Shown in pieces: positions 3,534 through 64,000 of a stretch of 64,000 nucleotides of DNA (positions within the stretch are counted from its first letter, which is position 1; the number at the start of each line of letters is the position of its first letter). The position numbers and the translations under genes are program-made. The DNA is taken from NCBI RefSeq assembly GCF_014138285.1, contig NZ_JACGXN010000008.1, positions 62,001-126,000 of the forward strand, read 5' to 3'. Source of the stretch: Phyllobacterium myrsinacearum (lineage in GTDB: Bacteria > Pseudomonadota > Alphaproteobacteria > Rhizobiales > Rhizobiaceae). The notes beneath the pieces are model-generated. The model saw only the letters and a list, made by a program, of their open reading frames with translations, had not been told where the DNA came from and searched no databases.

Positions 3534-3562
3534 TTGACAGACTCCGGACACACGCCTACCAT
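3534..3562 (+). promoter_or_regulatory. Predicted promoter of the metE transcript
   Basis: TTGACA (3534-3539) and TACCAT (3557-3562) are spaced by 17 bp. Transcription would begin just before the cobalamin riboswitch at about 3569. Confidence 0.6.
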
Positions 3563-3571
3563 CCCCGCTAT

Positions 3572-3774
3572 CGTGGTTCTGTGCGCCTTCGGGCGCAGAG
3601 CTAAGAGGGAATACGGTGCGATCTCCGCAAGAGATTTAATCCGGAGCTGCCCCCGCAACTGTAAGCGGCGAGCTGTTGTCAATTTCGTGTCACTGATCCC
3701 AGATGGATCGGGAAGGCCTGACAAGAGCGCTGACCCGTGAGCCAGGAGACCTGCCTCGATAGATAACGTCCACG
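3572..3774 (+). promoter_or_regulatory. Cobalamin riboswitch upstream of metE
   Basis: The leader contains the class hallmarks in order: GAATACGGTGC (about 3619-3629), the conserved core GCCCCCGCAACTGTAAGCGG (3649-3668) and the B12 box AGCCAGGAGACCTGCC (3740-3755). CGTGG (3572-3576) and CCACG (3770-3774) can close the P1 stem. About 100 bases of expression platform, including a CGCTTGCAAGCG palindrome, follow before metE. In this family adenosylcobalamin binding turns off downstream expression, here of the B12-independent methionine synthase. Confidence 0.95.
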
Positions 3775-62086: not shown

Positions 62087-63787
62087 TTACTTACCGATGA
62101 TGCGGTTGGCAGCCGAGACAATGCCTTCAAGCGAGGCGGCAACAATGCTCTTGTTGATGCCCGCCCCGAAAATCTTGCCATTGGGATGCTCGATTTCCAT
62201 GTAGCTGATGGCCGCCGCATCGGAACCGTGCTGGAGCGAATGCTCGGAGTAATTGGCAACCGAGAGCTTAAAGCCGAGATAATGTGACAGAGCATCGATG
62301 AAGCCATCGACCGGGCCTGTGCCCCTGCCCTCGATCCGCTTCGTCTCGCCGCGGTCGGTAATTTCGGCGGAGAGGATGCGCATGCCCTTGTGCTCCGTGT
62401 CCGGATAGGTGTGGTGATCCACAAATTTCAGGCGTGCATCCGGCTGATCTACATAAAGCTCGAGGAATCGCTGATAAATCTGCTTGGACGGCATCTCTTT
62501 GCCTTCCTCGTCAGTGATGTGCTGGATGTCATCACGGAACTCCACCTGCATGCCGCGCGGCAGGTTGATGCCATAATCAGCCTGCAGGATATAGGCGAGA
62601 CCGCCCTTGCCCGACTGGGAATTGATGCGGATGATCGCTTCATAGCTGCGTCCAACGTCCTGCGGATCGATGGGCAGATAGGGCACTTCCCACAATTCCT
62701 TGTTGGCCTGTTTGATCGCCTTCATGCCCTTGTTGATCGCGTCCTGATGCGAGCCGGAGAAAGCCGTATAGACCAGTTCGCCCACATAAGGGTGACGTTC
62801 CGGAATCACCAGCTGGTTGGAATATTCATAGACTTCCTTCATCCGGTTGATATCGGAGCAATCAATTTCGGGGTCGACACCCTGCGTGAACATGTTCAAT
62901 GCCAGGGTAACGATATCAACATTGCCCGTACGCTCGCCATTGCCGAACAAGGTGCCTTCCACGCGGTCGGCACCGGCCATCAAGCCAAGTTCCGTCGTGG
63001 CAATGCCCGTTCCGCGATCATTATGCGGATGCAACGAAATGATCAGGTTTTCGCGGTTGTCGAGCTGACGGCACATCCACTCGATGCGGTCGGCATAGAT
63101 GTTCGGCGTCGACATTTCGACCGTCGACGGCAGATTGATGATGAGCTTGTTCTCTGGTGTCGGTTTGACGATTTCCGTTACCGCATTGCAAATTTCCAAA
63201 GCCACTTCGAGTTCGGTACCGGTAAAGCTCTCCGGTGAATATTGGAAGCGGAAGCCGCCACCGGCTTTGGCGGCCATGTCGGTGATCATCTTGGCCGCAT
63301 CCGTAGCAATGGTTTTGATGCCACTGACATCCTTATTGAACACAACCCGCCGCTGCAGTTCACTGGTCGAATTATAGAAATGGACGATCGGCTTGTTCGC
63401 ACCCTGCAACGATTCAAAGGTGCGGGTGATCAGTTCCGGACGGCATTGCACCAAAACCTGCAGCGATACATCGTCAGGAACATTGCCTTCCTCTATGCAC
63501 CAGCGGGCAAAGTCGAAATCCGTCTGCGAGGCTGATGGAAAGCCGATCTCGATTTCCTTGAAACCCATATCGAGCAACAGCGCGAACATGCGCACCTTGC
63601 GGTCGTGTCCCATAGGATCGATCAATGCCTGATTGCCGTCGCGCAAATCGACGGAACACCAGATCGGTGCTTTTTCAATGCGCTTTGACGGCCATTGCCG
63701 GTCTTTCAGGTCAACCGTGGGATAGGGTTCGTACTTTTTGCGGGCATCGGGCATACCCACAATGCGGGGAGCGGTCATATCGGTCAT
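62087..63787 (-). CDS. leuA: 2-isopropylmalate synthase
   Basis: A 566-residue long-form LeuA condensing acetyl-CoA with 2-ketoisovalerate, the first committed step of leucine synthesis. The HMGL-like barrel has VDLRDGNQAL (Arg49, Asp50), IINLPSTVEMSTP and the metal-binding His pair in SLHPHNDRG. The C-terminal LeuA dimer domain for leucine feedback is present (RILSAEITDRGETKRIEG onward). ATG 63787 or 63778 could start it. A leader with a Leu-rich peptide and terminator precedes it. Confidence 0.97.
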   Translation of the reverse strand: MTDMTAPRIVGMPDARKKYEPYPTVDLKDRQWPSKRIEKAPIWCSVDLRDGNQALIDPMGHDRKVRMFALLLDMGFKEIEIGFPSASQTDFDFARWCIEEGNVPDDVSLQVLVQCRPELITRTFESLQGANKPIVHFYNSTSELQRRVVFNKDVSGIKTIATDAAKMITDMAAKAGGGFRFQYSPESFTGTELEVALEICNAVTEIVKPTPENKLIINLPSTVEMSTPNIYADRIEWMCRQLDNRENLIISLHPHNDRGTGIATTELGLMAGADRVEGTLFGNGERTGNVDIVTLALNMFTQGVDPEIDCSDINRMKEVYEYSNQLVIPERHPYVGELVYTAFSGSHQDAINKGMKAIKQANKELWEVPYLPIDPQDVGRSYEAIIRINSQSGKGGLAYILQADYGINLPRGMQVEFRDDIQHITDEEGKEMPSKQIYQRFLELYVDQPDARLKFVDHHTYPDTEHKGMRILSAEITDRGETKRIEGRGTGPVDGFIDALSHYLGFKLSVANYSEHSLQHGSDAAAISYMEIEHPNGKIFGAGINKSIVAASLEGIVSAANRIIGK

Positions 63788-63877
63788 TTGCTTCTCGTTT
63801 CCGGCCGTCTGCGCATCTGTGGCGCTCGTGCGGCACTTTTTCAAGCGTTGGAATGGTCTTGTAAAGGGGTAAGGAGC

Positions 63878-63930
63878 AAAAAGCCTGGCGGCACTTTCGA
63901 CCGCCGGACGCTCCTCTCAACGAGCCCGGC
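63878..63930 (-). promoter_or_regulatory. leuA transcription attenuator
   Basis: On the minus strand CCGGCGG (63907-63901) pairs with CCGCC-A-GG (63891-63884), followed by TTTTT (63882-63878): a terminator 91 bases before leuA. GCCGG (63930-63926), in the end of the leader peptide, can instead pair with CCGGC (63907-63903), destroying that terminator. This is the mutually exclusive pair expected for ribosome-controlled attenuation. Confidence 0.78.
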
Positions 63931-63982
63931 GATCGCCGATAAGGTCGAGAAGTAGCGGAAGGAGATAGGCGCGGCTAGTCAA
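63917..63982 (-). CDS. Leucine-rich leader peptide of leuA (start uncertain)
   Basis: A short minus-strand frame ends at TGA 63919-63917 and encodes a peptide finishing TSRAYLLPLLLDLIGDRRAR: six Leu among eight consecutive residues, including the rare CTA codon. It lies directly before an antiterminator/terminator pair and leuA. A TTG at 63982 would give 21 residues, but the frame remains open to the window edge, so the true start may lie outside. Ribosome stalling at the Leu codons during leucine shortage would favour the antiterminator. Confidence 0.72.
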   Translation of the reverse strand: MTSRAYLLPLLLDLIGDRRAR

Positions 63983-64000
63983 ACCCGCAAAAGCGGATTT

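Follow-up and report, generated by a model that had tools for sequence, protein, structure and literature searches.

What governs leuA in Phyllobacterium myrsinacearum, where a short, leucine-rich reading frame precedes the gene on the same strand? The window, by which we mean the whole 64,000-nt stretch analysed here (G000:C8:62001-126000, from a genome of 5.97 Mb), had been the subject of an earlier note that saw in this region the logic of ribosome-mediated attenuation. On the evidence of sequence comparison, the locus very probably carries a transcription attenuator placed before leuA, in which the translating ribosome reads the supply of leucyl-tRNA. The leader and the alternative helices proposed in the note hold across relatives, whereas an intrinsic terminator with a T run does not as a general feature. 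The argument turns on the following elements.

62087-63787, minus strand: leuA, 2-isopropylmalate synthase in its long, yeast-like form (NF002991, E 6.1e-261, and TIGR00970, E 1.6e-227, both above cut-off)
63917-64000, minus strand: the part of the predicted 39-codon leu leader frame that lies within the window, its ATG being outside (L002:637)
63941-63964, minus strand: putative regulatory codons CTC CTT CCG CTA CTT CTC GAC CTT, read 63964-63941
63925-63935, minus strand: segment 2 (CGATCGCCGGG), 5' arm of the antiterminator-like helix with segment 3
63910-63916, minus strand: 5' arm of the outer stem of the stop hairpin, GAGGAGC, directly after the leader stop
63898-63908, minus strand: segment 3 (TCCGGCGGTCG), common to both alternative helices in the free and fitted alignments
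63878-63882, minus strand: TTTTT in the internal loop of the stop hairpin, without conservation
63871-63877, minus strand: 3' arm of the outer stem, GCTCCTT, paired with GAGGAGC

The LeuA protein of the source genome (searched against the two profiles with one additional residue ahead of the ATG at 63787) shares 96-98% identity with LeuA of several Phyllobacterium species. The next gene upstream of the leader is unrelated, and a fused trpE(G) lies farther upstream. Elsewhere in the window, a cobalamin riboswitch (RF00174, 118.7 bits) occupies 3557-3772 of the plus strand. A sub-threshold Trp_leader match (26.5 bits, gathering 41) at L003 3144-3244 lies where leuA ends, not near the leader, and is probably due to chance.

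The leader had been expected to start at or beyond the window edge, and the DNA past that edge agrees: the ATG is at 64036, 36 bases outside. The frame of 39 codons encodes METRQTHQSSFAKSAFAGLTSRAYLLPLLLDLIGDRRAR, ends with TGA at 63919-63917, 129 nt ahead of the leuA ATG, and contains the announced run of six Leu codons in eight. To this locus we added 80 leuA relatives, taken from public genomes together with 1.5 kb of DNA to either side, giving 81 loci. A motif search for a Leu run followed by GDR or GCR and a stop returned exactly one match in each of the 81 leuA upstream regions, in accord with the proposed place before leuA, and a simple frame picker retrieved a Leu-rich small frame with the same tail from 80 of the 81, our own included (the miss being L069). 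A fixed-rule scan of the last 450 bases upstream of leuA, which asked for a frame beginning with ATG, no longer than 70 codons and carrying 5 or more Leu in 8, succeeded in 68/81 regions but in only 1/405 dinucleotide shuffles. Thus, a predicted leader frame with a run of codons for the end product of the pathway accompanies leuA at every locus compared.

The conservation of this leader is of an uneven kind. In a set of 78 distinct leaders, the peptide varies over its N-terminal half but is fixed, down to the choice of codon, at its end: 78/78 have CTT for the last Leu (same-codon fraction 1.0), and the residue before this Leu uses the same codon in every pair of leaders that share that residue. 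Comparison also reveals a pronounced codon bias, with CTT accounting for 231 of the 338 Leu codons that 62 distinct leaders carry in their final 16 positions (CTC 78, CTG 21, CTA 7, TTG 1), as opposed to 86 of 2300 in the same leuA genes, where CTG supplies 1332; the CTT share is thus 68% in leaders and 4% in leuA. CTT and CTC are decoded by one tRNA, with the anticodon GAG. Pairing with AGGAG as the sole cause of the CTT bias was considered and rejected, because CTC would pair at least equally well, yet CTT is three times commoner. An A stands directly after this last CTT in 66/66 aligned sequences (invariant CCTTA; 63943-63940 in the window), with the next residue varying among Ile, Thr and Ser, and no role was found for this base. 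The leader peptide had no match in NCBIfam, and its only two Pfam matches, ParD (E 0.099) and YLATT (E 0.15), were far below cut-off.

A feature shared throughout the comparison is the spacing of a promoter-like pattern (TTGNNN, 17 nt, a box, and 6 to 10 nt to the ATG), found at 81/81 loci and at 85/4050 random positions (2.1%); the pattern is permissive and prefers a spacing of 17, and every in-frame ATG was tried at the loci, against one position at a time in the control. A 4-mer resembling a ribosome-binding site of the Shine-Dalgarno type precedes the leader ATG at only 6/81 loci. Because the promoter-like box lies so close to the ATG, the leader mRNA is probably leaderless, with its 5' end at the ATG or a few bases from it. 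Passages of a Sinorhizobium meliloti study report 171 mapped leaderless starts (PMC3616915), and trpL of S. meliloti is described as leaderless in the available text of PMC10117765. A perfect 9-bp inverted repeat with the arms GGCCAGACA and TGTCTGGCC spans the predicted -10 box at about 64064-64037, outside the window edge (L002 665-638) and just ahead of the leader ATG; its arms are partly retained in other Phyllobacterium, and it is perhaps an operator.

Downstream of the Leu run, the RNA can adopt two alternative pairings. Segment 2, at the end of the leader, can form a helix of 11 bp plus 4 bp with segment 3, past the stop, and within it lies the GCCGG:CCGGC complementarity on which the earlier note had based its competing pair. 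In the free alignment (A1, 66 sequences), 98.0% of the cells of this 2:3 helix are paired, compared with 29-52% in slid controls; the covariation score exceeds all 500 shuffles, as do the paired and the two-sided cells, but the number of pairs with two-sided changes and the number of pair types do not exceed the shuffles. In the alignments fitted to their structures (A2 and A3, drawing on 94 of 203 loci), 97.0% of cells are paired (slid controls 30.7-53.4%), 5/15 pairs changed on both sides, and covariation is above 500/500 shuffles. For the stop hairpin, the fitted alignment gives an outer stem paired in 99.1% of cells, with two-sided changes at 4/6 pairs, and inner helices paired in about 86%, with one such pair. 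Divergent relatives display whole pair swaps, such as GGAGT:ACTCC and AAGGGGC:GCCCCTT. The check across relatives proposed in the note therefore came out in its favour, with the Leu codons kept and compensatory changes in both hairpins. Because segment 3 is common to both, the 2:3 and 3:4 helices are predicted to be mutually exclusive.

As to the extent of the stop hairpin, the note had correctly recognized the inner GC hairpin but stopped short of the outer stem, GAGGAGC:GCTCCTT, so that the T run it had placed after the hairpin sits in an internal loop of a longer one. It is this outer stem, starting at the leader stop codon, that forms the conserved portion of the hairpin. We also considered the AGGAG past the leader stop as the ribosome-binding site of a second frame, and rejected this candidate since no ATG, GTG, TTG or CTG stands at the usual distance in AGGAGCGCCCGGCGGTCGAA, the common form of the sequence.

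Would a ribosome halted in the Leu run favour one of these helices? We computed the minimum-energy structure of the RNA ahead of the ribosome for 65 sequences, counting 13 nt from the A-site codon on as covered, in a model that deals with energies and leaves kinetic order outside. The 2:3 helix was predicted in 47/65 when the ribosome occupied the penultimate Leu codon, falling to 42/65, 35/65 and 31/65 for the third, fourth and fifth from the stop. A stall on the last Leu codon gave the 3:4 helix in 47/65, and stalls at earlier Leu codons gave it in 22 to 32 of 65. When the RNA was free from the stop codon on, with segments 1-2 masked, 3:4 formed in 65/65; a ribosome on the stop codon itself allowed neither helix in 65/65, and without any ribosome the outcome was mixed, 2:3 being the minimum in 20/65. 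In the source genome, 2:3 was predicted from the last two Leu positions only. The exclusive helices are thus placed so that a stall in the Leu run may favour one of them, with mixed results at other Leu positions; the modelled arrangement is consistent with switching by a stalled ribosome, even if the codons do not all give a clean result.

From this layout we infer that the ribosome would stall, which way control would run and that transcription would stop, as follows. The promoter just upstream would start the RNA at the leader ATG or within a few bases of it, and, because the RNA would begin there, the leader would probably be translated from the 5' end. When leucine is short, the ribosome would stall in the CTT/CTC run with its front edge halting just before segment 2, allowing segments 2 and 3 to pair and RNA polymerase to continue into leuA. 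When leucine is plentiful, the ribosome would pass and leave, the 3:4 hairpin would form, with the AGGAGC next to the stop codon pairing with GCUCCU, and transcription would end before leuA.

How transcription would end is the step on which the relatives diverge from the classical scheme. The earlier note had described a GC hairpin followed by TTTTT; the T run is real, at 63882-63878 after the inner GC hairpin, but it is not general. Using a detector that required a hairpin at -8 kcal/mol or below and, after it, 5 or more T in 8, we found a hairpin with a T-tract between the leader stop and leuA in 5/81 loci, all of them Phyllobacterium and this window among them, and none in the other 76. Counted directly, the first 8 bases after the stem contain 0-4 T in 68/68 distinct rows (5 of them anchored on an inner GCTC) and in 94/94 rows of a larger set (at least 20 scored past an inner stem). 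The same detector was positive in 30/30 regions before trpE in the same family, and in these trp leaders the best 8-base window holds 5-7 T, as located by a leader picker that looks wrong in 3/30 rows (L151, L155, L156). The family's other attenuator hence uses T-tracts; the copy in our genome, outside the window and ahead of the fused trpE(G) (L083, about 1705-1590, minus strand), encodes MNTRVIISNGWWWAR and has a hairpin followed by TTTTTGTTT. With the T-tract in 5/81 leu loci only, the classical end of the mechanism is present here and in the sister loci but not in the rest, and strict membership in the intrinsic-terminator class stands for the Phyllobacterium subgroup only, the leader elsewhere being predicted to work like an attenuator. 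An intrinsic terminator with U5 after the inner hairpin is plausible in the source genome. For most of the relatives examined, we think it probable that transcription stops otherwise than by plain intrinsic termination, with help from Rho or in another non-canonical way. Immediately downstream of the outer stem, a motif resembling CTTTACA/CTTCACA (L184-L203, L002 and others) occurs in 20/85 distinct tails, where shuffles have a mean of 2.9 and a maximum of 7, the rows being related and the motif having been picked after seeing the data.

As to how such a stop could come about, we lean tentatively towards Rho, short of holding it probable. The C-rich, G-poor leader around the Leu codons, perhaps together with the stretch past the hairpin, would load Rho between ribosomes; a stalled ribosome would cover this site, and the 3:4 hairpin would pause polymerase for Rho. 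Composition agrees, since, in 60-nt windows whose starts lie 110 to 50 nt ahead of the leader stop, C exceeds G in 98-100% of the 81 loci, as it does in 86-99% just past the hairpin (windows starting at +10 to +40), with G exceeding C in the hairpin itself, and so does the lack of a detectable intrinsic terminator from leader to leuA in 76/81 loci. The leaning draws on this C-rich leader together with a precedent in the family, the duf1127 uORF attenuator of S. meliloti, for which the authors, in the available part of PMC12218461, infer a Rho-dependent stop and cite a Bordetella case with a rut site within the uORF. However, Rho's part at the leu loci is read from composition only, the excess of C over G may merely reflect Leu, Ser and Ala codons, and the conserved alternative helices would be superfluous to a Rho model taken by itself.

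A second account, which we consider possible but somewhat less so, has classical attenuation throughout the family, the 3:4 hairpin acting in these bacteria as an intrinsic terminator even without a T-tract. The strength and conservation of the hairpin speak for it, as do the T-tract inside the hairpin in the source genome and four sister loci and a logic like that of the trp and leu attenuators; against this, the low T counts after the leu stem contrast with the hairpin and T-tract of every trp region tested. The preference for Rho is, like this alternative, our inference. One picture joins the Rho reading to the two helices, and we hold it more doubtfully still. In it, the whole family would share a leucine attenuator whose regulatory codons also contribute to the site where Rho loads: a leucine-starved stall would shield that site and allow the anti-pause helix, the conserved U-less hairpin would only pause polymerase for Rho, and a few Phyllobacterium would have gained a U-tract on top. 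If true, classical attenuation by two hairpins and uORF attenuation of the Rho-dependent type would be combined in one device controlling a gene of amino-acid biosynthesis.

Control of leuA translation or RNA decay by the alternative hairpins, in place of transcription, is unlikely. The general scarcity of T-tracts in the leu loci would suit it, as would the actinobacterial LEU element, whose Leu codons, according to passages of PMC1262725, pair with the leuA ribosome-binding site and which has no terminator. Yet the hairpin ends about 80-250 nt from leuA, at a variable distance, and in the rows listed, judged by eye, the intervening sequence is poorly conserved between genera and no conserved pairing with the leuA start was noticed. 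Less probable again is that the leader peptide or leader RNA serves as a trans effector in the manner of peTrpL and rnTrpL of S. meliloti (described in the available text of PMC7298713), since a freely varying N-terminus with a codon-level fixed end is what an RNA and stalling device would show and the peptide has no protein-family match, although an RNA role in trans is compatible with both observations.

The proposed attenuator appears to be a property of the family. An RNA model built from 66 distinct sequences finds one copy in the source genome and matches 183/199 genomes of the Rhizobiaceae, 8 of the 16 misses being genomes of at most 2 Mb; one listed family genome alone, G477, has two matches. 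Across the order it matches 13/249 genomes, which are 9 of the 10 listed family genomes and 4 that belong to a single other genus (g99). A LeuA match at E up to 1e-100 but no model match, under the stricter filters of the model search, was seen in six genomes of the order outside the family. In 4/4 genomes common to both searches, our own included, 70-210 nt separate the model match from the matched part of leuA downstream of it, so that its position relative to leuA is established in these four and not individually for all 183. Outside the family, small frames with at least 4 Leu in 6 codons were seen in 13/26 leuA upstream regions of other families or orders, and these are a lead only, because the scan had no shuffle control, the L098 sequence was just 239 bases long, and for L122 and L123 the scan read the wrong strand. 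Of the 35 strong non-own leuA matches, 20 were retrieved. By eye, L099, L103, L107, L110 and L113, from other alphaproteobacterial orders and families, seem to have a small frame that contains Leu codons, or even two such frames, some of them with CGACTTA.

In the open-access literature searched, beyond which most subscription papers lie, we recognized no account of this leu leader and found no leucine response, transcript end or peptide reported for it. We make no claim of priority for the leader itself, as earlier comparative work may list alphaproteobacterial leuA leaders. Should the attenuator be borne out, the Rhizobiaceae, which include the main nitrogen-fixing symbionts, gain a directly testable leucine sensor before leuA.

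Among known systems, the closest is the enterobacterial leu attenuator (leuL; RF00512, Leu_leader), which likewise places a Leu-codon leader before leuA, with mutually exclusive helices and rare Leu codons. LeuL combines its rare codons with a T-tract terminator. Here, in contrast, the leader is probably leaderless and the stop hairpin, which starts from the leader stop codon, has no T-tract in 76/81 loci. RF00512 went unmatched in the window at the gathering threshold, in 8 loci at E up to 1 and in 63700-64000 at E up to 10, and no Rfam family matched the leu leader in the window or the 8 loci searched. The LEU element of Actinobacteria is similar in having a Leu leader before leuA without an obvious terminator; in the passages of PMC1262725 it is a pseudoknot that sets Leu codons on the leuA ribosome-binding site, whereas here two competing hairpins lie well upstream. 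The S. meliloti duf1127 attenuator resembles ours in relying on a uORF without a functional intrinsic terminator and in its inferred Rho-dependent stop, but, as described in the available part of PMC12218461, it senses translation in general, and the leu leader has a specific Leu run and conserved alternative helices. Finally, the trp attenuator of the Rhizobiaceae (trpL/rnTrpL) shares with the leu leader the family and the short leader before a biosynthesis gene, and differs in its T-tract, present in every trp region tested and absent from most leu loci. The principle is old; what would be new, if it stands, is a two-hairpin amino-acid attenuator conserved without a U-tract, and the trp and leu leaders would then form a natural pair for comparing intrinsic with factor-assisted attenuation in one cell.
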